From: Proteobacteria bacterium CG1_02_64_396
GTDB lineage: Bacteria > Pseudomonadota > MNWR01 > CG1-02-64-396
Assembly (NCBI GenBank): GCA_001872725.1
Contig: MNWR01000093.1
Span: forward strand, 1-64,000
Length of the DNA: 64,000 bases
Reading direction: 5' to 3'
Shown here piece after piece: positions 288 to 16,220 of the stretch. The position numbers and the translations under genes are program-made. Each line of letters starts with the position of its first letter. Position 1 is the stretch's first letter. Under the pieces are notes generated by a model that was given only the letters and a program-made list of their open reading frames with translations, was not told where the DNA came from and ran no database searches.

Positions 288-470
288 ATGTCCGATGTCC
301 ACATCTTCAATCGCACGCACGCAGCCGACAGCAACGCCGCCCCGTCGATCCAAGCCCGCAAACCCTACACCCCCCCCGCGTGCGTCGACCTCTCCGCCCA
401 GGCGACGCAAGGCAAGATTTATTCGACCAAGGAGGCGACAGGCTACTTCGGGATTGTGGGGGTGTCATAA
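288..470 (+). CDS. Lasso peptide precursor A1 (predicted core GKIYSTKEATGYFGIVGVS)
   Basis: This 60-residue peptide has the layout of a lasso precursor. Its leader (residues 1-41) carries YTPPACVDL at 27-35, matching the YxxP-type motif that the PqqD-like B1 protein binds in this family. The leader ends ...ATQ, with Thr at the penultimate position as is usual. The predicted 19-residue core then starts with Gly42 and has Glu at core position 8, the correct spacing for a Gly1-Glu8 isopeptide ring. Tyr12/Phe13 of the core could be the steric plug, and the core ends in Ser. The start at 288 is chosen because AGGAGG lies 9 bases upstream; an in-frame ATG at 258 has no such site. The lasso enzymes lie in the following 16 kb, and a second precursor with the same leader motif lies at 9461-9604. 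Motif placement is seen; ring formation is inferred. Confidence 0.85.
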   Translation: MSDVHIFNRTHAADSNAAPSIQARKPYTPPACVDLSAQATQGKIYSTKEATGYFGIVGVS

Positions 471-503
471 GCACGGATCTGGCCATCGTTCGAGCCTTGC
501 CCA

Positions 504-540
504 ACGCCCCCGGGGATTCTCCCCTGGGGGCGTCGTTTTT
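504..540 (+). terminator. Terminator or attenuator after precursor A1
   Basis: A GC-rich hairpin (arms about 504-516 and 520-533, with a TTC loop) is followed by GTCGTTTTT. It sits between the precursor gene and the next gene at 604. Such an element lets the precursor be made in excess over the modifying enzymes by partial termination. Confidence 0.75.
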
Positions 541-603
541 GGGGCTTTCCCCCATGATCGCGTGCCCCCCCGTTGCCGAACCCAGAAACCCGGAGCATGA
601 GCC

Positions 604-2217
604 ATGACCACCCCGGCAGGGACCAACGTCATCGACTTCGCCCGTCACCATGCGGCGTTTCGCAATCCCGCGTATCGGTTCGAGGTCTCTTCGCGCAGGA
701 TCCTCCCCGGCGCCGATCCGAGCGATTATCTCAAGGTTTATTACCCCTACCTCGATATCGCCCAGGTCGAGGCGGTCTTCGGCAACGCCGTCTACCCCTC
801 CCGTTTTTACGGAGGGCGTGGCTACAACCTGGAACACAGCCTGACCGACCGCCACATCGCAACCCTGAATGGGCGGGGGATCGGGGTGAGCCTGACCCTG
901 ACCGGCCACTATTTCGACGAGGCGGTCTACCGGGCCAATGGGCCGTTTCTGGAGCGCTTCCATCGCCCCGGCAACGCCATCGTCTGCACCAACGACACCC
1001 TGGCCCGCCGCATTCGCCGCGACTTCCCCGATTACCTGCTTAAAGCCAGTCTCATCAAACACCTGACGACGGTGGACAAGGTCGAGCAGGCGCTCGAACT
1101 CTACGACCGCGCCGTCATTCCGATGGACATGAACGACGACGACCTCTTTCTGGCCGCCTTGCCCGACAAGGAGCGGATTGTTCTGTTCGCCAACGCCAAC
1201 TGTGCCTATGCCTGTCCGGCCCGCACCTGTTATGTCGCCATCTCCCAACGCCACTGGGGCAAGGAGAAAACCCCCGGGGCGGGGTGCTCAACGCCGTGGC
1301 TGCCGCGCCAGGAGACCGGCCACACCTTCTTCGATGTCGACAAGTTCGCCCGCATGGGTTTTTCCCACTTCAAGCTGGTGCCCCGCCTCAACCCCAATTC
1401 CGAAGCGGTGTTGCGGATGTTGGCCGCCCCAAAAAAGGGGGCCGGGGTCGCTCGCCCCGCAGCCGCTCCCGCCGCGACGATCCACTCCTTTCCCAAATGT
1501 GGCCGCACCTGGCTGCGCACCCTGCTGGCCCACTATCTCAACCGCCACTTCGACTTGCAGGTGACGGTCAACCTGCAAACCCTGTTCACCCTCATCCCCA
1601 ACGATCGCCCCGGCCTGAAGGGGGTGGAGCATTACCCGTTTGGCCACGTGGCCCGGATGCCCCTGGTGGTGGCCAGCCACGCCGCCGCCTCGCTCCGCCG
1701 TGGGGGCGATATTCTGCTGCTGCGTTCGATCCCCGACGTGGTGGTCTCCGATTATTTCCAGCACCGCAAGCTGGGGGCGTTCGCGGGGAGCCTGTCGGAG
1801 TTCATAGCGTGGGAGGAGGGGAGCCTGAGCCGCTATTGCGACTACCTGAACGGCTGGGCCGCGCAAGATGCGTGGCTGGGGATGCACGTGCTCACCTACG
1901 AAGGGCTGCATGCCGACACGGCGGGGGAGCTAACCCGGCTGTTGTGCCATCTGGGGGTGGAGGTCGATCCCGACCAGGTGGCCGAGGCGGTGGCCGAGGC
2001 GAGCTTTGCGGCGATGCAGCGGGAGGAACAAGGGGCGGGCCATGCCGGGATGCCCGACCCTAACGGCGATCCCGAGATGTTCAAGGTGCGCAAGGGGAAG
2101 GTGGGGGGGTATCGCGACTACCTCGACCAGGTCGAGATCGAGCGGCTGCAAACCCTCGTCGCGCAGCGGCTCTCCCCCGAGGCGCGGGCCATGTTCGAAC
2201 ATTTCGGGCTTGGTTGA
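604..2217 (+). CDS. Two-domain protein: cysteine-bearing barrel-like (U32-like) domain fused to a sulfotransferase
   Basis: The protein has 537 residues. The C-terminal half (about 290-537) is a PAPS-dependent sulfotransferase. It has the 5'-phosphosulfate loop SFPKCGRTW at 295-303, a 3'-phosphate motif RSIPDVVVSDY, and the RKGKVGGYRDYL segment near the C-terminus. The N-terminal half looks like the TIM-barrel fold of the peptidase U32/UbiU group and has Cys at 200, 204, 209 and 228 (CAYACPARTC, then GAGC), which could hold an iron-sulfur cluster. That assignment is tentative. The start at 604 follows the A1 attenuator, and the next gene starts 4 bases after the stop, so the two are probably co-transcribed with A1. 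The likely job is to sulfate or otherwise modify the A1 product. I know of no established function for this domain fusion. Confidence 0.7.
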   Translation: MTTPAGTNVIDFARHHAAFRNPAYRFEVSSRRILPGADPSDYLKVYYPYLDIAQVEAVFGNAVYPSRFYGGRGYNLEHSLTDRHIATLNGRGIGVSLTLTGHYFDEAVYRANGPFLERFHRPGNAIVCTNDTLARRIRRDFPDYLLKASLIKHLTTVDKVEQALELYDRAVIPMDMNDDDLFLAALPDKERIVLFANANCAYACPARTCYVAISQRHWGKEKTPGAGCSTPWLPRQETGHTFFDVDKFARMGFSHFKLVPRLNPNSEAVLRMLAAPKKGAGVARPAAAPAATIHSFPKCGRTWLRTLLAHYLNRHFDLQVTVNLQTLFTLIPNDRPGLKGVEHYPFGHVARMPLVVASHAAASLRRGGDILLLRSIPDVVVSDYFQHRKLGAFAGSLSEFIAWEEGSLSRYCDYLNGWAAQDAWLGMHVLTYEGLHADTAGELTRLLCHLGVEVDPDQVAEAVAEASFAAMQREEQGAGHAGMPDPNGDPEMFKVRKGKVGGYRDYLDQVEIERLQTLVAQRLSPEARAMFEHFGLG

Positions 2218-2221
2218 GCCG

Positions 2222-4252
2222 ATGGGTCCGATGGCAGCGCCGTCCATGTCGGTATTGTTGATTTCGCCGCCGCTCAATTCCCTGACGCATCCCCATGCGA
2301 GCCTTCCGGTGTTGACCGCCTTTTTGCGCGCCCGTGGCGTGCGGGTGGTGCAGCGCGATTTGGGGATCGAGGTGATGGAGGAGCTGTTCTCTGCGGCGGG
2401 GATCGCGGCGTTGGGGGGGCGAATTCGACGCAAGGCGGCTGCGGAGGATCCCGAAAGGGGGGGCAAGCGGCTGCGCGAAGCGCTTCTGATGGTCGATGTC
2501 GTGGCCGAGGGGATCGAGGCGGCCAAGGGGGTCATGCGCGACCGGGAGGCGTTTTACGATCCCGAACGCTACCTGCATGCCCACCGTCTGCTCGCCCGGG
2601 GGTTCGATCTGATCGAGGCGGCCCACCCCAACCTGCGTTTCAACGGCGATGCCCTGTCGATGCGCCACCCCGCCACCTTCGACAGCTGCGAGGCCTTCGC
2701 CGCCGATCCCGAGTCCCACCCTTTCCATGAAGCGATTCAGCGTCGACTTGCCGAACTCGTCGGCTCGGGCCCCTTCGACTGGATCGGCCTTTCGGTCACC
2801 TACACCGGGCAACTCCATTTCGCCTTTGCCCTGGCCCGCATGGCGCACGAGCTCTTCCCCGGGGTACCGGTCGTCATGGGGGGGGCGGCGATCAGTCTGG
2901 CCGAGGATACCCTGCGTCGCTTTGCGCAGCGGGCGTTTGCCCTGGCCGACGGTTTTGTTTTCGGCGAGGGGGAGGGGCCGCTGGGCAATCTGCTCAATCT
3001 GGTGTGCGATCCAGCGCAGGCGGGGGGGATTCACAAAAACCTGATGCTCTCCCCCGCCGTTCGCGCCCGGTTTGCGCTGCCCGACGACCTGGCGACGATC
3101 GCCCCCGTTACCGATCTCGACCAGTTGCCGACCCCCGACTACGGGGGGCTCGACTTGAGCCGCTACCTCACCCCCGAACCGATCTTCTTTTTGGGCAACA
3201 CCCGGACTTGCTACTACGGCCAATGCGCCTTTTGCTCCTGCGGCTACGGCCACAAGGGGCGCTACGCCATCCGTTCGATGGCGAAGATCGAGCAGGATCT
3301 GCGCACCCTCAAGGAGCGGTTCGGCGCCCGCTGCCTGTTCTTCACCGACGATTGTCTTCCCCCCAAGCGCGGCCGGGAGATTGCCGAGTTTTTACACGGC
3401 GCCGGTTTGGACTTTGTTTGGTCGGCGTGGCTGCGTTACGAAAAGAGTTTCGACGACGACACGGTCGCGGCGCTGGTGCGCAGCGGTTTGCGGCAGGTCT
3501 CGTTTGGCAACGAGTCGGGATCGGCGCAGATGCTGGAGACGATGCGCAAAGGGACCGATCCGCAACGGGGGGTCGAGACGATCCGGCGGATGGCGGCCCA
3601 CGGGGTCGGGATCGACCTGCAAAACTTCATCGGTTTTCCCGGCGAGACCCACGAGCAGGCGCAGGAGACGGTCCGTTTTCTCGTCGCGCTCAAGACGATG
3701 GTCACCACCTGCGCCTTCGGCGCCTACTACGTCGCCCACGGATCGCCGGTGGCGTTGGAGCCGACCGCCTTCGGGGTGTCGGATCTGCGCCTGATCGACC
3801 CCGAGCGGTTGATCCCCTCCTACCACTACACGGTTGACCGTGGCCCCGATCCCGCCGAGCTGCCCGATCTGTACAAGCGTTTTGCCGGTTTCATCCACCT
3901 GAACTTTCTGACCGGAACCTTCTTTTTGGAATTGGGGATCGGCGCCCACACCCTGCTCTATCACGAGCGGTACGGCTCCGCGTGGGTATGCAGCCGTTTG
4001 CCGCTATTGCTGCGGCGGCGCGGTCAATGGCAATCGGGCGACCGTTGGGGCGATGGGGTGCGTCGGGTGCTGCACCCGGACGGCAGTCTGTCGGCCTTCG
4101 ATTCCCACAGCGGCGTGTTGCTGCGGGTCGAGCAGGGGCAGGGATGTCTGGCGGTTCTGGAGGGTGGGGCCGATGTACCCGATGCCAAGGTGCGCAGCGA
4201 TTTGAATCTGCTCTTCAGGGAGGGGTTGGTCGGTCGGGAGCGGTCGTCTTGA
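2222..4252 (+). CDS. Cobalamin-binding radical SAM protein
   Basis: This protein of about 676 residues has a BchE-like layout. An N-terminal B12-binding-type Rossmann segment (SVLLISPPLN onward, with the GLSVTYTGQ and VMGGAAIS segments) is followed by a radical SAM domain. The cluster-binding cysteines are 330, 335 and 338 in CYYGQCAFC, a Cx4Cx2C spacing seen in some B12-radical SAM proteins rather than the usual Cx3Cx2C. Family members carry out methylations, cyclisations and other C-H chemistry. The gene starts 4 bases after the sulfotransferase fusion and follows precursor A1, so it is a candidate tailoring enzyme for that peptide. ATGs at 2231 and 2246 are possible alternative starts, because no clear ribosome binding site decides. 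The role in the pathway is inferred. Confidence 0.8.
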   Translation: MGPMAAPSMSVLLISPPLNSLTHPHASLPVLTAFLRARGVRVVQRDLGIEVMEELFSAAGIAALGGRIRRKAAAEDPERGGKRLREALLMVDVVAEGIEAAKGVMRDREAFYDPERYLHAHRLLARGFDLIEAAHPNLRFNGDALSMRHPATFDSCEAFAADPESHPFHEAIQRRLAELVGSGPFDWIGLSVTYTGQLHFAFALARMAHELFPGVPVVMGGAAISLAEDTLRRFAQRAFALADGFVFGEGEGPLGNLLNLVCDPAQAGGIHKNLMLSPAVRARFALPDDLATIAPVTDLDQLPTPDYGGLDLSRYLTPEPIFFLGNTRTCYYGQCAFCSCGYGHKGRYAIRSMAKIEQDLRTLKERFGARCLFFTDDCLPPKRGREIAEFLHGAGLDFVWSAWLRYEKSFDDDTVAALVRSGLRQVSFGNESGSAQMLETMRKGTDPQRGVETIRRMAAHGVGIDLQNFIGFPGETHEQAQETVRFLVALKTMVTTCAFGAYYVAHGSPVALEPTAFGVSDLRLIDPERLIPSYHYTVDRGPDPAELPDLYKRFAGFIHLNFLTGTFFLELGIGAHTLLYHERYGSAWVCSRLPLLLRRRGQWQSGDRWGDGVRRVLHPDGSLSAFDSHSGVLLRVEQGQGCLAVLEGGADVPDAKVRSDLNLLFREGLVGRERSS

Positions 4253-4293
4253 TCCGCCAGGGTTCCATCCTCGCCCGAGCCCGGCGGCCGTCT

Positions 4294-4842
4294 TCAGTCC
4301 CCCTCCCGTCTCCCCGGACCCCGGTTCATCAATGCGTCGATCAGGGGGAAGAGCTTGAGGCCGATCAGGTAGAGCTCGCCATGGCGTTGCCGTAGGGCCC
4401 GTTGTTGCTCGGCGTCGAGCCCTTGCGCGTGCAAATGTTTGCGCACGGCGGCGATCGGAAGCCCCGCCAGGTCGGGATCGAGGCTGCACAAACGGGCAAA
4501 ACGGCGTTGCAGCGCCACCGTCTGTTCCAACTGTGCCCGCGCCTGCTCCAGTGCGATGGCCCCCCGCTGAAGAAGTCGCAGCGGGGTACAAAAAAAGGCG
4601 CCGCAGATGTGGGGACGGGGCGCCGCGTGGATGGTGCATGCCCGGTCGAAATGACGACAAGGCAAGGCGAAGATTGTTTTTTCGCCCCTGCGCCCGATGG
4701 AAAACCCCAGCGAGCGCGCCAGCGCAAGATCCTCGTCGCCGTAGATCCTCCCCACGTCGAACAGGGTGCCGTCGCAACATAAACCGCAGTCGATGCACAG
4801 TTGCTCGATCTGCTCCCGCGACGCCCCGGTATGTTGGTCCAT
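4294..4842 (-). CDS. YkgJ-type CxxCxxCC cysteine-cluster protein
   Basis: The protein has 182 residues. It begins with CIDCGLCC at about 16-23 and later has CRHFDRACTIH and CGAFFC, the pattern of the YkgJ family (PF03692), whose members are thought to bind zinc or an iron-sulfur cluster. The C-terminal half is helical and lacks cysteines. Most family members have no assigned reaction. It is the last gene of a minus-strand run with the lasso B2 protease gene (4983-5456) and a 46-codon reading frame, and it converges on the radical SAM gene. A supporting role in the lasso pathway, such as metal delivery, is only inferred from position. Confidence 0.75.
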   Translation of the reverse strand: MDQHTGASREQIEQLCIDCGLCCDGTLFDVGRIYGDEDLALARSLGFSIGRRGEKTIFALPCRHFDRACTIHAAPRPHICGAFFCTPLRLLQRGAIALEQARAQLEQTVALQRRFARLCSLDPDLAGLPIAAVRKHLHAQGLDAEQQRALRQRHGELYLIGLKLFPLIDALMNRGPGRREGD

Positions 4843-4845
4843 CGT

Positions 4846-4986
4846 TTATCCCCTTTTGGGATCGAGCCGCGATGCGATCCTTGCCGCGACGATCCCGGAA
4901 TCGGGATCGATCAAGGCGGGGATGCCGTGCCCGTGGTGTTCTTGCTTGATCGCCACGAGCGCAACCGGACCGGGAAAATCGGTCAT
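4846..4986 (-). CDS. Small 46-residue protein of unknown function in the lasso cluster
   Basis: This short reading frame begins with an ATG overlapping the stop codon of the B2 gene (ATGA overlap) and ends 3 bases before the start of the YkgJ-type gene, so translational coupling is likely. The peptide starts MTDFPGPVALVAIKQ and contains HHGHG and IDPDSG. It has no signal peptide, membrane segment or YxxP leader motif, so it does not look like a third precursor. I do not recognise it. The tight packing is the main reason to think it is real. Confidence 0.45.
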   Translation of the reverse strand: MTDFPGPVALVAIKQEHHGHGIPALIDPDSGIVAARIASRLDPKRG

Positions 4987-5456
4987 TCATTCCCCCCGTA
5001 CTCGAATGCCCCCACCACCGCGAATCCCAAAAACGACCTCCCCCCGGTCACCGCCACCCGGTCGGTGGCGACCCAGGCATGGGCCTTGAGCCCCTTGGCT
5101 TCGTCTTTGGCGACCCCGAGGCAGAGTAGGTAGGGGATGCGGTGCACCCGCAGCGCCAGCGCCGCCACCATCGCCTGGGCCAGACACTTCGACTGCCAGG
5201 GGGTGATCGCGGCGGTCGCCTCGATCAGTCGTCCCAGGCGGTAGGCGCGGCTCATTTGCGCACGTGTCGCCAAGGGGATGGCGGGGCCGTCGGGATTCAT
5301 AACCCCCAGATGGGGGGCGATGCGGCGGAAGGGGGCGATGAGCAGCGCCAGCCGCGCCAGCCCCAGCAGCACGAAGACCGGCAGGAACCAGACCTTTTCG
5401 AGTTTGGAGCGGCGGGCAAGGGTGCGGGCCTTGCGTAGGATGAGGGCGGGGGTCAT
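4983..5456 (-). CDS. Lasso peptide B2 leader protease (transglutaminase-like)
   Basis: This 157-residue protein matches the stand-alone B2 family, the cysteine protease that cuts the leader from a lasso precursor (the C-terminal half of McjB-type proteins). The presumed catalytic residues are Cys91 (in SKCLAQA), His126 (in KAHAWV) and Asp132 (in ATDRV). A hydrophobic stretch lies at about 23-42. The start at 5456 is chosen because the open frame upstream runs through a tandem repeat array that cannot be part of this domain. It acts after the B1 protein (6004-6285) has bound the leader. An 84-bp repeat array separates the two genes. The 46-codon frame and YkgJ-type gene follow with overlap or near contact. 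Confidence 0.87.
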   Translation of the reverse strand: MTPALILRKARTLARRSKLEKVWFLPVFVLLGLARLALLIAPFRRIAPHLGVMNPDGPAIPLATRAQMSRAYRLGRLIEATAAITPWQSKCLAQAMVAALALRVHRIPYLLCLGVAKDEAKGLKAHAWVATDRVAVTGGRSFLGFAVVGAFEYGGNE

Positions 5457-5479
5457 GGGGTTTTCATTGAGGGAGGATG

Positions 5480-5963
5480 TTCGGCGACGGGGTCGGGTTT
5501 GGTGAGATCGCCGCTTTTGTAGGAGCGGACCCCGTCCGCGAACGGTTTGCCCGCCCTGCCCGGTTCGGCGACGGGGTCGCCCCCCACGACAGCGCCGCTT
5601 TTGTAGGAGCGGACCCCGTCCGCGAACGGTTTGCCCGCCCCGCCTGGTTCGGCGACGGGGTCGCCTCCTACAACATTGCCGTTTTTGTAGGAGCGGACCC
5701 TGTCCGCGAACGATTTGCCCGCCCCGCCTGGTTCGGCGACGGGGTCGCCTCCTACGACATCGCCGCTTTTGTAGGAGCGGACCCTGTCCGCGAACGGTTT
5801 GCCCGCCCCGCCTGGTTCGGCGACGGGGTCGCCCCCCACGACATCGCCGCCTTCGTAGGAGCGGACCCCGTCCGCGAACGGTTTGCCCGCCCCGCCTGGT
5901 TCGGCGACGGGGTCGCCCCCCACGACATCGTCGCCTTCGTAGGAGCGGACCCCGTCCGCGAAC
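5480..5963. repeat. Six-copy 84-bp tandem array of inverted REP palindromes (REPIN-like)
   Basis: GTAGGAG followed by the palindrome GCGGACCCCGTCCGC (or with CCT in the loop) begins at 5519, 5603, 5687, 5771, 5855 and 5939, exactly 84 bases apart. Between these lie inverted copies of a sister palindrome (GGCGACGGGGTCGCC then TCCTAC). Each unit is thus a pair of REP sequences in opposite orientation. Because 84 is a multiple of three, several frames stay open on both strands, but none looks like a protein. The array lies between the genes for B1 and B2. Single or paired copies recur at about 9.8-10.0, 51.95 and 57.29 kb. Confidence 0.9.
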
Positions 5964-6003: not shown

Positions 6004-6285
6004 TCAACACACCTGCACCACCTCGTGCTCCAGCATTTGCGCCACGAAGGCGAGCGTGTCGGCCTGGGCGGTTGCCTCATCGACCTCATAAACAGCGCAG
6101 AGCTTCTCGGCGATCTCGGCCACGGTTAGCGGCTTCTCCAACCAGCCCCAGATGTCCGATCCGGTGGCGTCGATGCCGTAATACTTCCCCTTGGCGATGC
6201 TCATCATGACGACCTCGCCGTCCATGTCGGTGGCGATCAGGTCGGGGTTGCGCTCGATGCGGGTGGTCAGGGCGATGTTGGCCAC
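6004..6285 (-). CDS. Lasso peptide B1 protein (PqqD-like leader-recognition protein)
   Basis: The protein has 93 residues with the compact PqqD fold pattern: N-terminal strands (IERNPDLIATDMDGEVVMMSI), then KGKYYGIDATGSDIWGWL and a helical C-terminal half. This is the RiPP recognition element that binds the YxxP part of lasso leaders and presents them to the B2 protease. Both precursors in this window carry YTPPxxVDL, so this one protein may serve both. It lies between the sulfotransferase (6404-7261) and the repeat array, on the same strand as B2. Confidence 0.9.
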   Translation of the reverse strand: MANIALTTRIERNPDLIATDMDGEVVMMSIAKGKYYGIDATGSDIWGWLEKPLTVAEIAEKLCAVYEVDEATAQADTLAFVAQMLEHEVVQVC

Positions 6286-6403: not shown

Positions 6404-7261
6404 TCACACCGGATTCCCCGCATCGTCCAAATAACCCAGCCGCCGCATCACTTCCCCGTGGTCGGTGACGATTTTGGCTACCTGCTCGGGGTTGAGCTTG
6501 TCGCGCCACCCCCCGGTTTTCCCTTCGCCGAAGAAGGCCCCCGCTTTGCGGGAGCGCTCCCGGAACCCCTTTTCCGCCTCCTGCGCCCGCAGATTTTCGA
6601 TGGCGGCGGCGTCGATGGCCCGGCTCACCCGCTCGGGATTGCTCGGCAGTCCCAGCAGGGTGGCGGCGCGGGTGAAGGTGGACAGGGGGGCGTTTTTCAT
6701 GTCCTCGAAGCGGATGACCTCCAGTCGGATCCCTTCGGCCTCGATCCAACTCAAAACGTGGTCCGACCAGGTTCCCATCGGCTGATGTACCTGGTTGCCG
6801 ATGCCATGGGTTCCCATGACCAGCCCGAAATCGGGGTTGCCCATCGCGGCGATGGTGTCGTCCAGATTCATCCCCATGTGGCGGGCAAACGAGGGGGCGA
6901 CATCGAGGGGGTTGCGCACGATGTAGAGCGCTGCGGTGGTCGCCTCGGCGGGGAAGAGCGCATCGCCATTCGCAAGGCGAACGTAGGCGTCGTGCACCTT
7001 GACGTAGCGGGGCTCAGGCTCCGCCCCGCTCCAGCGGTAAACCAGGGGGCGCAAATGCATGATCTCGTCGGGGGTCAGGTCGGCCGAATCGAATCCCAAC
7101 ACCTCGTCGATCCACCGCCGTCCACTGGCGATGCCATCGGTCTGCATGTTGTTGATGTCGATCTGCGCCTCCTCCTTCCCCCGCAGGGCGGTCAAAAAGG
7201 CGCGAAACCAGGTGTTGCCCGATTTAGGATAGGAGGCCAGCCAGTAGCTCGATCCACTCAT
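6404..7261 (-). CDS. Sulfotransferase, candidate lasso peptide tailoring enzyme
   Basis: This 285-residue, single-domain sulfotransferase carries the 5'-phosphosulfate loop SYPKSGNTWFRAFL near the N-terminus, a 3'-phosphate motif IVRNPLDVAPSFARH in the middle, and GKTGGWRDKL near the C-terminus. It would transfer sulfate from PAPS to a hydroxyl group. Its start overlaps the stop of the first HPr-kinase-like gene by 4 bases, so they form one operon with precursor A2 and B1. Together with the fused sulfotransferase at 604-2217 it gives the cluster two sulfotransferases. The substrate could be a Ser, Thr or Tyr of a lasso peptide, which is inference from context. Confidence 0.88.
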   Translation of the reverse strand: MSGSSYWLASYPKSGNTWFRAFLTALRGKEEAQIDINNMQTDGIASGRRWIDEVLGFDSADLTPDEIMHLRPLVYRWSGAEPEPRYVKVHDAYVRLANGDALFPAEATTAALYIVRNPLDVAPSFARHMGMNLDDTIAAMGNPDFGLVMGTHGIGNQVHQPMGTWSDHVLSWIEAEGIRLEVIRFEDMKNAPLSTFTRAATLLGLPSNPERVSRAIDAAAIENLRAQEAEKGFRERSRKAGAFFGEGKTGGWRDKLNPEQVAKIVTDHGEVMRRLGYLDDAGNPV

Positions 7262-8151
7262 GCTTCACCTGTGTGGACAAGGTCGAGCAAGCGGTCGGTC
7301 AGGGCGCCGACGTAATCGCCGCCGCCAGGGTAGGACAGAGCCCAAAGCCGGATGTGTCCCGATAGGGCGGCGATTTGGGCCATGTGCTGGGTTTTGAGGC
7401 CCATGTGGTCCATGAAGGAGATGCGGTAGGTGTTTTTGCGCAGCGGCATGAAGCGGTTCATCCCCCACAGCGGTTCGGCGACGATTTCTTCCAGTGTGGT
7501 GGCTGAAAGGAGCACGACCCAGCGCACCGGCGACGGTTGGGTTGTGACGGCATCGGCCAACGGGAGGTGGTAGCGCTCCAACCCCGGTCGGACGGGGGTC
7601 AGGTCGTCGCGGGGGATGTCGAGCATCTTCAGCGCGTTGCGCCACAGCTTGAGGCGGGGGATTCCCGGCAGCGCTCGGTGTTGCTCGTCCAGGGCGATCA
7701 CGTCGTCGGCCACGATGCGATGCCCCCGTTTCATCAGCTCGGCGGCCAGGGTCGATTTGCCGCTGCCCGAACTGCCCAAAATCAAGATCGCCTGCCCGTT
7801 GATTTCGACGGCGGCGCCGTGCATGACCAAGCGGTCGCGCTGGAAAAGCAGCGCCGCCAATGGGGAGGCGAGCAAGAAGTTGCGGATGCTGGCCTCGTCG
7901 CTGCCGGGTTCGGGATCGATGACGATGCGATTGCCGCCCCGCACCCAGAACCGGGCCACCTTGGGGATTGCCAGCCACAGGTTGTGGCGGTCGGCCCGGG
8001 TCAGGGGGCCGATGCGGGGAATCTCGGCGGGACCATCCTTGGGGATGGGTCCGATCTCGACGATGGCGTCGGGGAGGCCGTCCGAAAGGGGGAGCTCCGG
8101 CAGGGGGAGGTCGCTTTCCAGGGTCAGGCCGCAAAGGCGGTAACGGCTCAT
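7258..8151 (-). CDS. HPr-kinase-like protein 1 (lasso-cluster type)
   Basis: The protein has 297 residues. A P-loop GSSGSGKST at about residue 130 follows a VMHGAAVEINGQ segment, as in the HPr kinase catalytic core, and RIVADDV follows. The HPr kinase regulatory domain is absent. Relatives in lasso clusters, such as PadeK of paeninodin, phosphorylate the C-terminal serine of the precursor. Both precursors here end in Ser. The start at 8151 (MSRYRLCGLTLES) aligns with the paralogue's start (MSHRHLLYGLTLES). An in-frame ATG 24 bases upstream is possible. It overlaps the sulfotransferase gene by 4 bases and is separated from its paralogue by a 141-bp palindromic element. Confidence 0.85.
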   Translation of the reverse strand: MSRYRLCGLTLESDLPLPELPLSDGLPDAIVEIGPIPKDGPAEIPRIGPLTRADRHNLWLAIPKVARFWVRGGNRIVIDPEPGSDEASIRNFLLASPLAALLFQRDRLVMHGAAVEINGQAILILGSSGSGKSTLAAELMKRGHRIVADDVIALDEQHRALPGIPRLKLWRNALKMLDIPRDDLTPVRPGLERYHLPLADAVTTQPSPVRWVVLLSATTLEEIVAEPLWGMNRFMPLRKNTYRISFMDHMGLKTQHMAQIAALSGHIRLWALSYPGGGDYVGALTDRLLDLVHTGEA

Positions 8152-8374: not shown

Positions 8375-9298
8375 TCATCCGCCCGTCCCCTGCGCCGGGG
8401 CGTTCCGGGCGATGTCGTCCAAAATCAACCCGGCCAGCTTCTCGGCCGGGTAATCCCCCCCGGCGGGGCGGAGGATGCGGCACAGCCGGATGCGACCGGC
8501 GAGCAGGCCGATTTGCGCCAATTGTGCCTCGTGACGCCCCATGGCGGAGCCGAAGCGGCGGCGGTAAAGGTTGCGCGACAACGGCAAAAAGCGGTTGCGC
8601 CCCTCGATCGCTTCGAAACGCAGATCGTGGCCGTCATGGGGGATCAGGATGTAAACCCAGCGCACCGGCATGGGGGCGAGCGGCTGGGCGTGGGCCAGGG
8701 GGAGGTGGTACTTCTCGAAGTCCCTGCCGATGCGTTGCAAACCCGAGGTGTCGATGGCCAGATCGTCGGCCGCCTCCTGCCACAACTTGATGCGGGGGAT
8801 GCCGGGGATGGCATTGCCGTCGGCGCAGACCGGCACCACGTCGTCGGCCAGCACCGGGTGGCCCCGTTTCATGAAGGCGGCGGCCAGGGTCGATTTGCCT
8901 GCCCCCGAGCGGCCCAAACACAGCAACGCCTGCCCATCGAGCGCCACCGCATTGCCGTGCAGCACCAAAAAACCCCGCTGCAACAGGATCGCCCCCAACA
9001 TCGAGCCGAGCAGGAAGAGGCGCAGCGTGTCTTCGTCGGCCCCCGGTTCGGCATCGATCACGACCCGATTCCCCCCCTGGGCGAGGAAGCTGCCGACCTG
9101 GGGAACGCGCAGCCAAACGGCGTCGGCGGCGATCTTGAGGTTGGGGGTCAAACGGCTCGATTCGGGCAGCAGCGCTTCGGACGCCTGGCCCCGGACGATG
9201 CACACGTCGGCCGCCCCGTCGGCGGCGATTTCAGGCGCTTCGGGCAGGGGGATGACGCTTTCGAGGGTCAGTCCGTAGAGGAGGTGGCGGTGGGACAT
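8375..9298 (-). CDS. HPr-kinase-like protein 2 (lasso-cluster type)
   Basis: This 307-residue paralogue of the protein at 7258-8151 shares the N-terminal GLTLES start, the QGGNRVVIDAEPG segment, VLHGNAVALDGQ, the P-loop LGRSGAGKSTLAAAFMKRGH and VLADDVVPV. The two clearly come from a duplication but have diverged. It lies directly downstream of precursor A2 on the minus strand, behind that gene's terminator-like hairpin. It is a candidate for phosphorylating the C-terminal Ser of one or both precursors. Two kinases and two precursors suggest one kinase per peptide or successive additions, but this is inference. Confidence 0.85.
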   Translation of the reverse strand: MSHRHLLYGLTLESVIPLPEAPEIAADGAADVCIVRGQASEALLPESSRLTPNLKIAADAVWLRVPQVGSFLAQGGNRVVIDAEPGADEDTLRLFLLGSMLGAILLQRGFLVLHGNAVALDGQALLCLGRSGAGKSTLAAAFMKRGHPVLADDVVPVCADGNAIPGIPRIKLWQEAADDLAIDTSGLQRIGRDFEKYHLPLAHAQPLAPMPVRWVYILIPHDGHDLRFEAIEGRNRFLPLSRNLYRRRFGSAMGRHEAQLAQIGLLAGRIRLCRILRPAGGDYPAEKLAGLILDDIARNAPAQGTGG

Positions 9299-9437: not shown

Positions 9438-9460
9438 CAAAAGGCCGAGGTTCGCAGGGG

Positions 9461-9604
9461 TTAAGAGGGGCCTACGGCGGTGCCGCTCTCGATGGGGGCG
9501 ACGGTTGTTTTCGCCTCGGTCTCTTCCAGCGCCTCCAGGTCGACGATGCTGGGGGGGGTGTAGGCAAGACGTTGGGCGGTTTCGGGGGTTGGGGCGGTGT
9601 GCAT
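9461..9604 (-). CDS. Lasso peptide precursor A2 (predicted core AKTTVAPIESGTAVGPS)
   Basis: This 47-residue peptide has a predicted 30-residue leader with YTPPSIVDL at 15-23, the same motif as precursor A1 (YTPPACVDL). The leader ends ...EETE, with Thr at the penultimate position. The 17-residue core would begin with Ala31 and place Glu at core position 9, the Ala1/acidic-9 spacing seen in paeninodin, and it ends in Ser. AGGAG lies 10 bases before the ATG at 9604. Downstream on the same strand are a hairpin terminator, two HPr-kinase-like genes, a sulfotransferase, B1 and B2. The shared leader motif, ring spacing and context together make this a strong call, though no product is proven. Confidence 0.82.
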   Translation of the reverse strand: MHTAPTPETAQRLAYTPPSIVDLEALEETEAKTTVAPIESGTAVGPS

Positions 9605-10092
9605 AGGTGGGACGCTCCTGAAGGGGGGTGACGATGGGGCGGGTGCCCCACGGGGTGGGTGTTTCGCAGGCTTTTACCCCCCCCGTCCCGTGAAGTCAAG
9701 GCAGGAATTCGGCCCAATGGGGTCGGTGGAGGGAGACGTCGTGTCGCGGCGGTTCTTCCCCCCAAGACCGGTTGGCCCACCGATGGATTCGGTCCGCCCC
9801 ACGTAGGAGGCGACCCCATCGCCGAACCAAGCAGGGCGGGCCACCCATTCGCAGGCAGCGCAGCAACCTCACAAACGCCGCGCCGTCTGTTCGCGGACTT
9901 CGGTCCGCTCCTACAAAAGCGGCGATCTCACCGAACCCGATGCCGCCGCCGAATCCGATGTCGTAGGAGGCGACCCTGTCGCCGAACCCTTGCTGTTTCA
10001 AAACCCAGCGGCCGCCTTGCCGCGATTGGGATCCCCGCCGCGCCGTGTATCATCCCTCCCCCTTGTCGCGCCCTTCCCGGAGTCGCCCACCC
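9605..10092. repeat. Intergenic region with three REP palindromes between divergent precursor A2 and cyclase genes
   Basis: REP copies lie at 9803-9827 (+), 9889-9914 (inverted) and 9963-9987 (+). Each has GTAGGAG next to a GGCGAC/GTCGCC- or GCGGAC/GTCCGC-type palindrome. The first two form an inverted pair like those in the 5.5-6.0 kb array. Promoters for both divergent genes should lie here, but none was recognised. No gene is seen in the 488 bases. Confidence 0.75.
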
Positions 10093-11976
10093 ATGTTTGC
10101 CGCCATTCTGACCCTCGACGACAGTGCCGCCCCCGAGCAGTGGGGCGACCCCGAGCGCTTGCTGGCCGCCCTGGCACCTTTGACCCCCCCTGAGCGAACC
10201 GGCATTCATCGCGGCGAGCGGCTGCTGGCGGTTCAGCTGCGCCATCGCGGCCACGGCGACCCCGACGAGCCGCTCCCCCTGGTGTGCCCCCGCAGCGGCA
10301 GGGTCATCCTCTTCTGGGGGCGGCTCGACAACCGGGGTGAGTTGCGGGCGCAGTTGGGGATGGAGGAGGGGGGCGACGCCGCGCTGGTACTGGCGGGGTA
10401 CGAGCGCTGGGGGCGGTCGCTGCCCGAGCATCTGGTTGGCGATTTCGCCTTCATGGCGGTCGATCCCCGCGAAGGGAGCGCCCTGCTTGTTCGCGATCCC
10501 CTGGGGATCAAGCCGCTCTATTACCTGAACACCGGTAAAGCGCTGATCGTCGCCTCTTCGGCGGCGGTCTTCCCCACCTTGGGGCGCGACCGCCCCGAAC
10601 CCGACCCCGACTGGATGGCCCGTTTTCTGGCTTGCACTTCAAAAAGTCACACCACCACCGGTTTTTCCGGGGTGCTCAAGCTCCCCGGCAGCCATCTGCT
10701 TGGCGTCGCCAACGGGGCGACGAGCGAGCCCAGGCGCTACTTCGAATTCCGTAACGATCCCCCCTTCGCCCTGCGCCATGACGAACGTTGGGTCGAGGCC
10801 TACCGGGAGCGGCTAGAAGAGGCGATCACCTGCCGTCTCGATCCCGACCACCCCATTGGGACCGAACACAGCGGCGGCCTCGATTCCTCCAGCATCGCCG
10901 CCTACCTGGCTCATCTGCTCGGCAATCCCGGCGACCGGCTGCACGCCTTCGGCTACGCCTTCAGCGAGGAGGAGCCCGACTGCATCCTGGGGACCAGCCT
11001 CTATGCCGGCATCCGGCACAACCATGTGATCACCAACCGGATGTTCGAAGACAAAAACGAACGGATCGACGAGGCGCTGCGGGTGCTGGGCTACCCCGAG
11101 GAGCACGGCAACGGCTCGGGCCACATCTTGTTTTACCGGGAATGCCAACTGCGGGGGATCCCGACCCTGCATTCGGGCTTCGGGGGGGACGAGGTGGTGA
11201 CCCAATCGGGCCATCACCTGCGCCACGAAATGCTCGACCGAGGCCATTACGGCCCCCTGTTCGGCATCCTGCCGGGCAATCCGATCACCCGGAGTTTGCG
11301 CTGGGGCAAGGCGGTGGCGACCCGGCTGCCCAATTCCGACCATTTTGGCCCCATTCTGGCGGTGCAAGAGCGGGCTCAGGCGGGGTGGTTTTTGCGGGGC
11401 GAAATGGTGGAGCGGCTCGATCTGGTGGCCGACCATCTCCAGCGGGCCCGATATGCCGCCCCCTACCGGCGCATCAACGAGTTTGCCCTGGGACGTCTCG
11501 GCGAGGCGTTTGTCCCCACCCGCCTAGAAAACTGCACGTCGATGGCGGCCGCCTACGGGGTCGATTACCGCTGGCCCCTGCTCGATGTGCGCTTGATTCA
11601 GCAATACCTCGACACCCCCGCCATCGAAAAGGCCGATCGCCGCATGGGGCGATTGCTGCATCGCCGCGCCGTCGCCCCGGTGCTGGGCCCCAAGGTGGCA
11701 TGGAAGCCCGAAAAATCGATGGGCAATCTGGTGGGCGAGGTTCAGGGGAACCTCGCCAAGGTCGTGGCCCAAGTCCGCGTGGCCGAGGCGCGGTTGCACC
11801 CCGCCTTGGAGCCCTTGATCGACCGGACCCTGCTGCGGGCGCGGATCGAGGCGGCCGAGGCGCTGGGGGACAGCCGAGTGTTGGAGCAGGTTCATGCGCA
11901 GCTCAGAACGTTGCTCCCCCTGGTTTGGCTCGACCGCTGGCTGCACGAAGGGGCGGCGACGGGGGGGCAGGGGTGA
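10093..11976 (+). CDS. Lasso cyclase C (asparagine-synthetase-like lasso peptide synthetase)
   Basis: This 627-residue protein has asparagine synthetase B architecture. An N-terminal glutamine-amidotransferase-like domain (about 1-190) lacks the catalytic Cys2, since it starts MFAAIL. A C-terminal ATP-pyrophosphatase domain carries the SGGLDSSS loop at about 258-265. Lasso cyclases use this domain to adenylate the side chain of Glu/Asp at core position 7-9, and the N-terminal amine then attacks to close the ring. Here that residue would be Glu8 of A1 or Glu9 of A2. The start at 10093 has GGAG 10 bases upstream. It is first in a plus-strand operon with the ATP-grasp, ABC exporter and nucleotidyltransferase-like genes, which overlap by 4, 17 and 4 bases. 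Confidence 0.9.
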   Translation: MFAAILTLDDSAAPEQWGDPERLLAALAPLTPPERTGIHRGERLLAVQLRHRGHGDPDEPLPLVCPRSGRVILFWGRLDNRGELRAQLGMEEGGDAALVLAGYERWGRSLPEHLVGDFAFMAVDPREGSALLVRDPLGIKPLYYLNTGKALIVASSAAVFPTLGRDRPEPDPDWMARFLACTSKSHTTTGFSGVLKLPGSHLLGVANGATSEPRRYFEFRNDPPFALRHDERWVEAYRERLEEAITCRLDPDHPIGTEHSGGLDSSSIAAYLAHLLGNPGDRLHAFGYAFSEEEPDCILGTSLYAGIRHNHVITNRMFEDKNERIDEALRVLGYPEEHGNGSGHILFYRECQLRGIPTLHSGFGGDEVVTQSGHHLRHEMLDRGHYGPLFGILPGNPITRSLRWGKAVATRLPNSDHFGPILAVQERAQAGWFLRGEMVERLDLVADHLQRARYAAPYRRINEFALGRLGEAFVPTRLENCTSMAAAYGVDYRWPLLDVRLIQQYLDTPAIEKADRRMGRLLHRRAVAPVLGPKVAWKPEKSMGNLVGEVQGNLAKVVAQVRVAEARLHPALEPLIDRTLLRARIEAAEALGDSRVLEQVHAQLRTLLPLVWLDRWLHEGAATGGQG

Positions 11977-13214
11977 GCCTCTCCCGCTGGTGGCGCTTGC
12001 TGCTGCGCGAGGTGATTCGGCGCCCGTTTCCCCATGGGGTGCTCCATCCGCGCTTTTTGCTGCCGGGGCAGTCCCGGCAGGTGGGTATCCACCGCACGTT
12101 GTGGCGGATGGGGCGGCCCCGCTCCATTCCCGTGCTGGTGTGGTGGCCGTTGGAATTGTTGCTTTGGCTGCGTTGGGCCCTTTGGAGCGGCTGGGGCCCC
12201 TTGTGGCGGACGGTGCGGCGGTTGGGCCCTGTGGTGGCCGAGGCGGAGGGGATCCCGGTTTGGCGGCAGGGGTTGAGACTGGCCCGAATCAGCCTGCTGG
12301 GGGGGATCCCGGCGGCGGCGCTGTACCCCTTTTGCCTCTATCGCGCAGACGGTGCCCGGCGAATGTGGGATTACCTCTACGACACCGAGACGGTCCCCTT
12401 CCATCGCTGGGAGAGCGCCCCTTTGGGGCTCTCCCGCGCTTCGCTGGACCTGGTGCAGGACAAGGCGGCCTTGAGCGAGGCGGCCCGGGCGCTGGGGGTC
12501 GCCACGGCGGGGAATTTGGGGGTGTTGCCGAAAGGAGGAACGCCCGATTTGCCCCCCTACCTCGACCATCCCGGCGGCATCTTCGTCAAGCTGCGCAGCG
12601 GCAATCGGGCCGAGGATGCCTTCGCCTTGGCGCGCCAGGGTGGGCGGCTTTCGATCCGCTGCCTGCACGGCAAAACCCTTGAGGAACAAGCATTGCCGGA
12701 TCACCTACGCGCTATGGCGGCCAAGGACGATCTGCTGGTGCAGCCGCTGCTGACCACCCACCCCGATCTGCAAACGGCGTGCGCCATCGACGACGTTGCC
12801 ACCCTGCGTTTGATCACCCGGCGGGTCGGCGAAGAGGTAGTGTCGGCGTGGGCCATGGTGGAGCTGGCGGTTGAGCGCTCCGAGGAGGGGCATCCCCTTT
12901 ATGTCATTCTTGCGCTGGCGGAGGATGGGCGGATCAAGCGTTTTCCCGAGGCTGTCCCCCTGCCTGCCGAGGCGCGTGCGCGCATCGCCAAGGTGGAGGC
13001 GCTTCTATCGGGGCAAATCCTGCCGGGATGGACGGCGATGCGGCAGGGGAGTCTTCTGCTGCACCAACGGCTGCTGCCCGACCTGGCGACCATCGCTTGG
13101 GATTGGGCGCTGACCCCGCAAGGGGGGCGTTTGTTGGAGGGCAATTTCGGTTGGGGGATGCAGCTCCCGCAAACCATACACGGGGGGCTGTTGAGGGATG
13201 GACGCGATGGGTGA
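11973..13214 (+). CDS. ATP-grasp protein of the sugar-transfer-associated type
   Basis: The protein has 413 residues, starting at a GTG that overlaps the cyclase stop (GTGA). The N-terminal third is rich in hydrophobic and basic residues (WWPLELLLWLRWALWSGWG), suggesting membrane contact. The rest fits an ATP-grasp fold: GIFVKLRSGNRAEDAF for the nucleotide-binding lysine strand, DDLLVQPLL, and GRLLEGNFGWGMQLPQ near the end for metal-binding residues. It resembles the ATPgrasp_ST family (PF14397). ATP-grasp enzymes join carboxylates to amines or thiols. In this operon it could add a group to the lasso peptide, but the substrate cannot be read from the sequence. Confidence 0.7.
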   Translation: MSLSRWWRLLLREVIRRPFPHGVLHPRFLLPGQSRQVGIHRTLWRMGRPRSIPVLVWWPLELLLWLRWALWSGWGPLWRTVRRLGPVVAEAEGIPVWRQGLRLARISLLGGIPAAALYPFCLYRADGARRMWDYLYDTETVPFHRWESAPLGLSRASLDLVQDKAALSEAARALGVATAGNLGVLPKGGTPDLPPYLDHPGGIFVKLRSGNRAEDAFALARQGGRLSIRCLHGKTLEEQALPDHLRAMAAKDDLLVQPLLTTHPDLQTACAIDDVATLRLITRRVGEEVVSAWAMVELAVERSEEGHPLYVILALAEDGRIKRFPEAVPLPAEARARIAKVEALLSGQILPGWTAMRQGSLLLHQRLLPDLATIAWDWALTPQGGRLLEGNFGWGMQLPQTIHGGLLRDGRDG

Positions 13215-14955
13215 TCTGAACGTGCAGGGGCAATCGGCCACACCGGCGGAACTACGCCGTTTTTTAAAGGTGCTTTGGCATTTCGACCGACGCGCCGTCG
13301 CCTTTTTGCTGACCACCAACATTTTGGCGGCGCTGACCGCCGGGGCGGGGTTCGTCCTGCTGTTGCCGTTGCTGTCGCTGGCCGGGGTGATGGGGGCGGG
13401 CGGGGACGGCTGGAGTGCCACCTTCGAAGCGATGCTGGGAACGGTGGGGCTGCACCTGAATCTGGCCACCGCTTTGATCCTCTTCGTGGTGCTGGTGGGG
13501 CTGCAAACCTGGTTGACCTTGCTGCGTGATCGGCAATCCCAGGCGCTGCAACTGCGCTTTGGCGACCATCTGCGCCTGACCCTTTACCACGCCATGGCGG
13601 CCGCCCGCTGGCGCTGGCTGACCCGACGCCACAGCGCCGACCTGCTCGGGGTGCTGACCAACGACATTCAGCGGGTCGGATCGGGAACCTTCCATCTGCT
13701 GCAATTGCTCACCACCGCGCTGCTGACCACCGTCTACCTTGGCGTGGCGTTGCTGATTTCGCCCTTCGTTACCGCACTGGCGCTGGTTACCGGCGCCCTG
13801 CTCTGGTTGGTGCTGCGCCGTGGCGACACGGTGGCCAAACACAGCGGCGCCCTGCTCAGTCAGGCGACTCGGGGGATGTTCACCCTGGCCCAAGAATTCT
13901 TGGCGGCGATGAAACTGACCAAGATCCACGGCGAGGAGGGGGAAAACGTCGCCCTGTTCGAGGGGATCACCTCTCGGCTGCGGGGGCATCAACTGCGCTT
14001 CAACCACGTCCGCACCCGGGTGATGGCGACCTACAAAATCGGCGGGGCGCTGGTGCTGGCGGGGTTGACCTGGGTGGCGCTGGATGTACTGCACCTGCCC
14101 ACCGCCAGCCTCTTGGTACTCATCGCCCTGTTCGCCAAGCTGCTCCCCTCGCTGTCGCAGGTGCAAACCGGAATCCAGCAGCTTTGGCACATGTTGCCCG
14201 CCTTCACCACCTGGCGGCTGTTGGTGGCCGAGGGGGAGGAACACGCCGATCCGACCCGTCATGTGCCGGGGGGGGAGGCGCCCGCGCTGCTGCGCGCCAT
14301 CGCCCTTGAGGCGGTTGCCTACCGCCACCCCACCTCCGATTTTGTGGTCAATGCCGCCGAGCTGCACATTCCGGCCCGCGCCACCACCGCCATCGTTGGC
14401 CCCTCGGGCAGCGGCAAGACGACCCTGCTCGATCTGATCTGCGGGTTGATCCCCCCCGATCATGGGGCGCTGCGACTCGACGATCTGCCGCTGGAACAGG
14501 CGCTCACCCAGGGCTGGCGGAGCAAGATCGCCTACGTCCCGCAAGAGACCACCATCCTCGACGGGACGGCGCGGGAGAACCTGCTCTGGGGCAACCGGGC
14601 CAGCGAAGAAGAGATCGCCGACGCCCTGCGCCACGCCGCCGCCGAGTTTTTGCTCGCCCTGCCCCAGGGACTCGACACCCAGGTCGGGGAGCGAGGGGTG
14701 CGGTTGTCGGGGGGTGAAAAACAGCGGCTCGCCCTGGCCCGCGCCCTGCTGCGCCGCCCGGAGCTGCTGATCTTGGACGAGGCGACCAGTGCGCTCGACC
14801 GCGACAACGAACGGGCGATTTTAGAGGCGGTGCGGGGGCTGCACGGGCAGATGACGATTCTGATCGTCACCCACCGTCACGAGTGGCTCGACGGCTTGAT
14901 CGACGGTCGGGCCGAGGTGGCGGCGGGGGTGGTCGGGGGATGGAGTCCGGCATGA
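13198..14955 (+). CDS. ABC exporter (permease fused to ATPase), lasso peptide export/immunity
   Basis: The protein has 585 residues with an N-terminal six-helix ABC exporter membrane domain (about 20-330) and a C-terminal ATPase. The ATPase has Walker A GPSGSGKTT, signature LSGGEKQRLALARALL, Walker B LLILDEATSALD and the switch histidine in VTHRH. There is no N-terminal C39 peptidase, as expected for lasso exporters such as McjD, because the leader is removed by B2. It overlaps the ATP-grasp gene by 17 bases and the next gene by 4. An ATG at 13207 is an alternative start. It likely exports the mature peptide(s) and gives self-protection. Confidence 0.88.
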   Translation: MDAMGDLNVQGQSATPAELRRFLKVLWHFDRRAVAFLLTTNILAALTAGAGFVLLLPLLSLAGVMGAGGDGWSATFEAMLGTVGLHLNLATALILFVVLVGLQTWLTLLRDRQSQALQLRFGDHLRLTLYHAMAAARWRWLTRRHSADLLGVLTNDIQRVGSGTFHLLQLLTTALLTTVYLGVALLISPFVTALALVTGALLWLVLRRGDTVAKHSGALLSQATRGMFTLAQEFLAAMKLTKIHGEEGENVALFEGITSRLRGHQLRFNHVRTRVMATYKIGGALVLAGLTWVALDVLHLPTASLLVLIALFAKLLPSLSQVQTGIQQLWHMLPAFTTWRLLVAEGEEHADPTRHVPGGEAPALLRAIALEAVAYRHPTSDFVVNAAELHIPARATTAIVGPSGSGKTTLLDLICGLIPPDHGALRLDDLPLEQALTQGWRSKIAYVPQETTILDGTARENLLWGNRASEEEIADALRHAAAEFLLALPQGLDTQVGERGVRLSGGEKQRLALARALLRRPELLILDEATSALDRDNERAILEAVRGLHGQMTILIVTHRHEWLDGLIDGRAEVAAGVVGGWSPA

Positions 14956-16220
14956 GCACATCCGAAACCTTCATCATGACCGACCGGGTGCGGTCGCTGG
15001 TCTACGGGGCGTTGGCCCCCTCTCCGCCGGACGACTTGGCGCAGCGGGTCGCCGCCTTGAATCCCGAGGAGTGGCAGGCGGTGCTGCATTTGGTCCGGCA
15101 ACATCGGGTGGGGCCGATGCTGTTTTGGGGGTTGAGCCGGGGCGGACTGCTGGAGCGGGTGCCACACGAGGTGGCGGCAACCTTGCAACAGCAGCAGCGC
15201 CGTTGGGGTATGCGCAATCTAAAAACCCACGCCGAATTGGTGCGGGTGTGCCGGTTGCTTGAAGAGGCGGGGATCGAAACCATCGCCCTCAAGGGGGCCT
15301 ATCTGGCGACCTTCGCCTACCCCTCGCTGGGGCTGCGCCCACTGCGCGACATCGACCTGCTGGTTCATCCCGACGACGGAATGAAGGCATTCGAAATCTT
15401 GCAAGGCCAGGGTTATGTCCCCGAGGAGCACGGCGATGCCCAGGCCTATGTCACCCAGATCAAACATCTGCCCCGGCTTGACCATCCCCATGGGGTGTCG
15501 GTCGAGTTGCACCTACGCCTGACCTCGCCGCGCGGAGACTTCGCCGACCGCCCCTGGATCGTCGATGACGAGGCCACCCTGTGGGGGCGGAGCGTCGTTC
15601 GGACGGTCGGGGGGAGCGATCTCCGTTTTTTGGAGCCGGTTGATCTGCTTCTACATTTGGCGCTGCACGCCACGGTCGATCACCGCCTGAGCATCGGCCC
15701 CCTCGGGATGGTCGATTTTGCTTGGCTGGCCCACACCCATGATCTCGATTGGGAGCGGGTCATGGCCCGCGCCTGCACCTGCGGTTTAGAAAAACAGACG
15801 CTGTCGGTTTTGGGGCTGGCGGCCCGTCGTTTCGGTACGCCGCTTCCCGCGTTGGTGTTGGGGCGTCTTGATGGCAACGAAGCCTGGCTGGAGAGCGCCG
15901 ATCATCTGATTTATGCCGACGCCGAGCATTTGTTCGTCATGAAGCGGGCGGTGATGGGGTTGGCGCAAGGGTCGTTGGGCGACCGGTTGCGGCAACTGGC
16001 GGCTTTGTTGTTCCCCGAACGAGATGCGTTGGCTGCCGAGTGTCGTGTTCGGCCCGGTCCCTGGCTGGCGCTGAATTACCCTTCGTACTGGATCAAACGG
16101 TTGCGCAAACTCTTTTCTCGCTCCGGCGCTTCGGTTCTAAGGCATCGCCACAGCCTTAAAACCGTGGCCGATCATCAAAGTGCTTTTGATGACTGGTTGG
16201 CGAGGGGGCCCAAACCGTAA
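14952..16220 (+). CDS. Nucleotidyltransferase-like protein (NTP_transf_5 type)
   Basis: This 422-residue protein starts at an ATG overlapping the exporter stop (ATGA). It carries the segment IALKGAYLATFAYPSLGLRP followed by LRDIDLLVHPDD, the metal-binding Asp-x-Asp pattern of the uncharacterised nucleotidyltransferase family PF14907. That family occurs often in clusters with PqqD-like proteins, lasso enzymes and HPr-kinase-like proteins. Relatives may add nucleotides to a kinase product or a peptide terminus, but no reaction is established. It ends the plus-strand lasso operon; hemC begins 124 bases on. Confidence 0.75.
   Translation: MSTSETFIMTDRVRSLVYGALAPSPPDDLAQRVAALNPEEWQAVLHLVRQHRVGPMLFWGLSRGGLLERVPHEVAATLQQQQRRWGMRNLKTHAELVRVCRLLEEAGIETIALKGAYLATFAYPSLGLRPLRDIDLLVHPDDGMKAFEILQGQGYVPEEHGDAQAYVTQIKHLPRLDHPHGVSVELHLRLTSPRGDFADRPWIVDDEATLWGRSVVRTVGGSDLRFLEPVDLLLHLALHATVDHRLSIGPLGMVDFAWLAHTHDLDWERVMARACTCGLEKQTLSVLGLAARRFGTPLPALVLGRLDGNEAWLESADHLIYADAEHLFVMKRAVMGLAQGSLGDRLRQLAALLFPERDALAAECRVRPGPWLALNYPSYWIKRLRKLFSRSGASVLRHRHSLKTVADHQSAFDDWLARGPKP

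Follow-up and report, generated by a model that had tools for sequence, protein, structure and literature searches.

Positions 288-16220 of the window, by which we mean the whole 64-kb stretch of contig C93 of Proteobacteria bacterium CG1_02_64_396 that was analysed (64,000 nucleotides), are confirmed by their gene content as a real lasso peptide cluster. We put at about 85% the probability that it is a kinase-type cluster, similar to those of paeninodin and pseudomycoidin, making two lasso peptides. The cluster has 14 genes and occupies the start region of its contig in a 2.94-Mb genome, window base 1 being contig base 1. An initial annotation had described a two-precursor lasso cluster having separate B1 and B2 genes and an unusually large set of tailoring genes; the open reading frames (ORFs) and hidden Markov model (HMM) searches confirm the presence of every gene that it named. 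Family assignments are from HMM searches against Pfam and NCBIfam models with the cut-offs of those models. The precursors and core lasso machinery are as follows.

288..470, plus strand: precursor A1, 60 amino acids (sequence and motif scan; Shine-Dalgarno-like AGGAGG upstream)
9461..9604, minus strand: precursor A2, 47 amino acids (sequence and motif scan)
4983..5456, minus strand: B2, leader peptidase (NF033537 lasso_biosyn_B2, 80 bits, cut-off 33; PF13471)
6004..6285, minus strand: B1, PqqD-type leader-binding protein, a recognition element (RRE) of ribosomally synthesized and post-translationally modified peptides (RiPPs) (NF033536 lasso_PqqD_Bac, 85 bits, cut-off 80; PF05402)
10093..11976, plus strand: C, lasso cyclase, asparagine-synthetase-like (PF00733 over its cut-off; PF13537, GATase_7)
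13198..14955, plus strand: D, ABC exporter (PF00005, ABC_tran; PF00664, ABC_membrane)

The A1 leader contains YTPPACVDL and ends in KPYTPPACVDLSAQATQ, followed by the predicted core GKIYSTKEATGYFGIVGVS, for which a G1-E8 ring is predicted; the A2 leader contains YTPPSIVDL and ends in LAYTPPSIVDLEALEETE, followed by the predicted core AKTTVAPIESGTAVGPS, with a predicted A1-E9 ring. The two have in common the leader sequence YTPPxxVDL, a Thr at -2 (the penultimate leader residue) and a final Ser, and their cores carry Lys as the second and Glu as the eighth or ninth residue. The hallmarks of lasso precursors, namely the leader motif, Thr at -2 and an Asp or Glu at core positions 7-9, are thus present in A1 (E8) and in A2 (E9). 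In a six-frame scan of the window with the motif Y..P..T-x-[GASC]..[DE]..S-stop, A1 and A2 were the only two matches, and there were none in 30 triplet-shuffled copies, in keeping with the two precursors claimed in the initial annotation. The GK..E..S layout of the A1 core matches that of Mariprofundus precursors. From the predicted cores, the [M+H]+ values computed for core less H2O are 1959.02 (A1) and 1567.83 (A2). Lasso homology of B1, B2 and C, the point on which the initial annotation depended, was found in the HMM searches, with B1 and B2 over their cut-offs and the cyclase having NF033535 lass_lactam_cya as its best NCBIfam match (E 6e-60). The cyclase is also 37% identical to that of a lasso cluster in G067, a genome of the Mariprofundus family. 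Third-position G+C content is 75-88% in all cluster genes, both small precursor genes included, which fits real genes in this genome.

The same region encodes proteins expected of a kinase-type cluster.

7258..8151, minus strand: K1, HPr-kinase-like (PF07475 Hpr_kinase_C, 55.5 bits, cut-off 33.3)
8375..9298, minus strand: K2, HPr-kinase-like (PF07475 Hpr_kinase_C, 33.4 bits, cut-off 33.3)
14952..16220, plus strand: N, nucleotidyltransferase-fold protein (PF14907 NTP_transf_5, 199.7 bits, cut-off 31.2)
6404..7261, minus strand: ST, stand-alone sulfotransferase (PF00685, Sulfotransfer_1, E 3e-20)

N belongs to the family to which PsmN, its counterpart in the pseudomycoidin (psm) cluster, is presumably also to be assigned, and has counterparts in Mariprofundus, G067 and Candidatus Scalindua clusters; ST is 52% identical to its Mariprofundus and 46% to its Scalindua counterpart. 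The substrate of lasso kinases is the linear precursor, which is phosphorylated on its C-terminal Ser, and these enzymes require a His-Lys-Asp-Asp set of residues; PsmN attaches one or two hexoses to the resulting Ser phosphate (PMC9266682, PMC8498205). A sulfotransferase gene has been recorded in some kinase-type lasso clusters (PMC8498205). The His-Lys-Asp-Asp residues are retained in both K1 and K2 and both precursors end in Ser, the combination that characterizes the kinase type, so that, with N and ST as known accessories, the products can reasonably be expected to carry phosphate, sugar and sulfate. Of the suggestion in the initial annotation that the product is perhaps phosphorylated and sulfated, the presence of enzymes for both is supported by the gene content, HMM matches and kinase residues. 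The presence of two kinases possibly reflects one per precursor.

Four further genes encode the remaining proteins of the cluster.

604..2217, plus strand: UST, fusion of an N-terminal four-Cys domain of ~280 amino acids to a C-terminal sulfotransferase (PF00685, E 2e-17, residues 293-523)
2231..4252, plus strand: B12-binding radical S-adenosylmethionine (SAM) protein (PF02310, B12-binding; PF04055, Radical_SAM)
4294..4842, minus strand: YkgJ-like CxxCxxCC protein of a lasso-associated subfamily (PF03692, 21 bits, under the cut-off of 23)
11973..13214, plus strand: ATP-grasp protein (PF14397, ATPgrasp_ST, 39 bits, cut-off 31.4)

For these, evidence comes from surveys of 150 relatives for the ATP-grasp and radical SAM proteins and of 399 genomes of the phylum for the YkgJ subfamily and the N-terminal domain of UST; the nearest relatives compared share only the phylum with the host. 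Most of the cluster has close relatives in Zetaproteobacteria, marine iron bacteria. In Mariprofundus sp. KV (NZ_VWNB01000002.1), a member of another family, one strand encodes N-K-ST-YkgJ-C, the opposite strand encodes B1-B2-D-ATP-grasp-fusion-ATP-grasp and there are three GK-x6-E...GPS precursors; the fusion, ATP-grasp and YkgJ proteins are all present in this one kinase-type lasso cluster. In G067, B1-B2-D-ATP-grasp and K-C-N-YkgJ are present, sulfotransferases are absent and the three precursors end in GS. N-K-ST-YkgJ-C is present in both G075 and G211, with B1-B2 on another contig, and a further uncharacterised relative, in G090, has C, ST, K and B1. In Candidatus Scalindua, one contig carries the fusion, a kinase and an ST-kinase fusion, and a second contig carries B1-B2-D-N. 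With the motif used above, precursors were not found in G075, G211 or Scalindua. Reverse-transcriptase/maturase-like ORFs directly adjoin the half cluster in G075 (L064, 51-2694). In Scalindua, PF14907 is fused to a methyltransferase domain (L014, 13680-15200) and a sulfotransferase to an HPr-kinase-like protein (16767-18557), both near the fusion-type sulfotransferase.

The relatives bear directly on whether this might be an ordinary kinase-type lasso cluster, with the radical SAM, YkgJ-like, ATP-grasp and fusion proteins as chance neighbours. YkgJ-type and ATP-grasp proteins are generally common and the radical SAM protein lacks a counterpart in related clusters, as such a reading would have it, but independent lasso clusters of another family again contain proteins of the particular YkgJ, ATP-grasp and fusion subfamilies seen here. 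Among the 399 genomes, the YkgJ subfamily occurs in five and only beside lasso genes, which are adjacent in all five, and CxxCGxCC is kept in the four of four YkgJ-like sequences compared. All ATP-grasp matches below 1e-30 among the 150 relatives are within lasso clusters. With the YkgJ subfamily and the strong ATP-grasp relatives seen only in a lasso context, both proteins are lineage-specific lasso components. PF14397 is the sole match of the ATP-grasp protein, and no graspetide synthetase model was matched at E<=1. For three of the four extras chance association is thus in large part refuted, and as a whole it is very unlikely; judged by gene conservation, the relatives show that the ATP-grasp, YkgJ-like and fusion proteins belong to the pathway. 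Three neighbouring PF14397-like stretches are present in genome G007 (L058, 6400-9500), where none of the queries tried detected lasso genes.

The best NCBIfam E value of the radical SAM protein is 4e-28, yet the protein is distant from the PhpK P-methyltransferases and TIGR03975 RiPP C-methyltransferases, reaching 97.5 bits for TIGR03975 (cut-off 281.85) and 97.9 for PhpK (cut-off 600). This protein supplies some of the observations that weigh against a kinase-type cluster with the content and borders given here. No counterpart at E<=1e-60 was present in the 150 relatives, so that the gene is assigned to the cluster by position only and might be a neighbour with no part in the pathway. The cyclase reaches only 203 bits against the NF033535 cut-off of 525. 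The three G067 precursors fit GK-x6-E only with Thr at -5, not -2, and, with the Thr so placed if the core begins at GK, the core starts given above are to be read as predictions. Finally, the left edge of the cluster is the contig end and, as the window begins at base 1 of C93, the cluster may extend leftward onto a missing contig.

The order of the genes allows a different division. On the plus strand, A1, UST and the radical SAM gene form the left block, followed on the minus strand by the YkgJ-like gene, B2, B1, ST, K1, K2 and A2 and then, again on the plus strand, by C, the ATP-grasp gene, D and N. The right border is hemC (PF01379), directly after N. Two non-coding features lie between genes.

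504..533, plus strand: terminator-like hairpin between A1 and UST, 12 pairs and a T tail (consensus match only; possible attenuator)
5507..5963, no strand: 84-bp repeat, arrayed in 5.4 copies between the B2 and B1 genes (repeat analysis)

One could envisage two adjacent RiPP pathways, with A2, K, N, B1, B2, C and D making a kinase-type lasso peptide and A1, UST and the radical SAM protein a non-lasso peptide, the latter set being encoded in a same-strand block with its own terminator-like hairpin. A fusion-type protein is also encoded beside kinases in Scalindua and, in the form of two separate genes, in a Magnetococcales genome that has no lasso B2, and Bacillota are reported to have a kinase RiPP family that lacks lasso enzymes and is frequently located alongside lasso clusters (PMC13381572). 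A1 has, however, the YTPP leader of A2, the penultimate Thr and the GK..E..S layout of related lasso precursors, and in Mariprofundus the fusion gene, with an ATP-grasp gene on either side, is part of the B1-B2-D operon and adjoins a lasso-like precursor. We consider separate pathways unlikely and retain a single kinase-type cluster with two lasso precursors. The hairpin is strong and directly 3′ to A1, and the genes downstream may consequently be expressed below the level of the precursor. The 84-bp unit (TGTAGGAGCGGACCCCGTCCGCGAAC...) is palindromic-looking; related single units are present at 9802-9828 and 9955-9988, upstream of C. The array separates B1 from B2, which in the relatives are adjacent or nearly so. 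Elsewhere in the window, at 58012-59772, there is a large repetitive ORF in which RCC1-type-like repeats and, N-terminally, two HYR-like repeats are recognizable by eye.

Homologues of full-length UST are encoded in the Mariprofundus lasso cluster (65% identical) and in Candidatus Scalindua (42%). UST is an optional component and, in Scalindua and in both lasso clusters that have UST, is accompanied by another sulfotransferase. The N-terminal domain matched no Pfam or NCBIfam family, and is rare, present in 3 of the 399 genomes. Cys 128, 200, 204, 209 and 228 are invariant in four aligned sequences with identities down to 34%, the last four forming Cx3Cx4Cx18C, from which a metal-cluster role can be inferred. 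AlphaFold models of UST, built on the four-sequence alignment with a mean predicted local distance difference test score (pLDDT) of 65-68, and below 50 in the Cys loop, have a β-α barrel-like order in this domain, which as modelled looks like a triosephosphate isomerase (TIM) barrel. With the model of full-length UST, the best non-sulfotransferase fold match was the U32 protein 5d88 (E 1.9e-4); with the domain only, generic TIM barrels were matched and 5d88 was outside the top 50. A U32 oxidase had been proposed by eye and from the one fold match, an identity that the profile comparisons, domain-only model and Cys spacing do not uphold. PF01136 (U32) matched neither this domain nor any protein of the host genome. 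In profile comparisons, which included shuffle, reversal and positive controls, the domain scored 19-26 against U32 subfamilies (probability 1-4%), versus 82-323 for true U32 pairs, 21.6 for the highest of 60 column shuffles of a combined U32 profile and 21.9 for an unrelated family. The U32 motif is Cx6Cx15Cx3-4C (PMC6747719). With scores level with or a little higher than the controls and a different Cys spacing, the domain, although possibly U32-oxidase-like, is designated here a four-Cys barrel of no known family. Searches of PDB sequences with the barrel, ATP-grasp, YkgJ-like and N proteins returned nothing usable.

Relatives of the barrel domain are found in bacteria of low-oxygen habitats. 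It is conceivable, albeit doubtful, that the barrel is an O2-independent iron-sulfur enzyme that hydroxylates the peptide, with the sulfotransferase domain of the same protein then sulfating that hydroxyl; if so, UST would combine hydroxylation and sulfation in a one-protein module and include a new kind of anaerobic peptide hydroxylase. In the Magnetococcales genome, the barrel domain and sulfotransferase are encoded by two overlapping genes beside a DUF4915 protein (L012, 6443-9189). There is no match to lasso B2 in that genome, and the module therefore exists outside lasso clusters.

The gene set and its conservation are observed, and from the protein families we infer all of the reactions and product structures that follow. 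B1 would bind either precursor, A1 or A2, through its YTPP leader, as is known for B1 proteins, and K1 and K2, with their His-Lys-Asp-Asp residues, would phosphorylate the still linear precursor at its C-terminal Ser. By analogy with PsmN, N would then place sugar on the Ser phosphate, and ST and the fusion protein would sulfate one or more hydroxyls. B2 presumably cleaves two residues past the leader Thr, after which C would join the new N terminus to Glu (G1-E8 in A1, A1-E9 in A2), for export of the product by D. The ATP-grasp and CxxCxxCC proteins are fixed components of the version of the pathway in this lineage, with roles that are speculative. The radical SAM protein, encoded next to A1 and the fusion protein, probably methylates or otherwise modifies C-H positions of the A1 product only, a role that is likewise speculative.

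The initial annotation regarded the combination of tailoring genes as unusual and the product as heavily modified and not recognised as described. Novelty of the tailoring set holds for the barrel fusion, ATP-grasp, YkgJ-like and radical SAM proteins. It does not hold for kinase, nucleotidyltransferase and sulfotransferase, which are known accessories of kinase-type clusters (PMC8498205, PMC9266682), and lasso peptides bearing phosphate and sugar are already known. Novelty of the cluster as a whole must be qualified by the close relatives in Zetaproteobacteria, among which the cluster is not alone. In a literature search that did not extend to the original paeninodin and pseudomycoidin papers, the four-Cys fusion, PF14397 ATP-grasp, CxxCxxCC and B12 radical SAM proteins were undescribed in lasso clusters, and sulfation of a lasso peptide was likewise not found reported in that search, which most subscription papers lay outside. 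The better claim to novelty lies in lasso tailoring genes that are conserved as a set and were unreported, among them that for the barrel, an unclassified, enzyme-like family with four invariant Cys that is fused to a sulfotransferase. Recurrence in independent clusters makes three of the four new parts testable as tailoring enzymes, with clear mass predictions.

Of known systems, pseudomycoidin biosynthesis in Bacillus pseudomycoides is similar in having a lasso core, a kinase K for the C-terminal Ser and a nucleotidyltransferase-type N (PMC9266682, PMC8498205) but, as described in reviews, differs from the cluster in the window, which has in addition the sulfotransferase fusion and the ATP-grasp, CxxCxxCC and radical SAM proteins. 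The same four extra enzymes separate it from the paeninodin (Paenibacillus) and proteobacterial SyanA/SyanK types, as reviewed, with which it shares an HPr-kinase homologue for the C-terminal Ser and, in some kinase-type clusters, a sulfotransferase gene (PMC8498205). The LPP RiPPs of Bacillota (lppAKBSDN) also have an HprK-like kinase, an RRE, an NTP transferase and an MsbA-like exporter, but their leader peptidase is signal-peptidase-like and their core set is without a lasso cyclase, whereas B2 and C are present here (PMC13381572). Closest in content is the uncharacterised Mariprofundus sp. KV cluster, with the fusion, ST, K, N, YkgJ, ATP-grasp, B1, B2, C and D proteins in common; it differs in having no radical SAM protein, one kinase rather than two, two ATP-grasp proteins, another gene order and three precursors, with cores of 24-25 residues.

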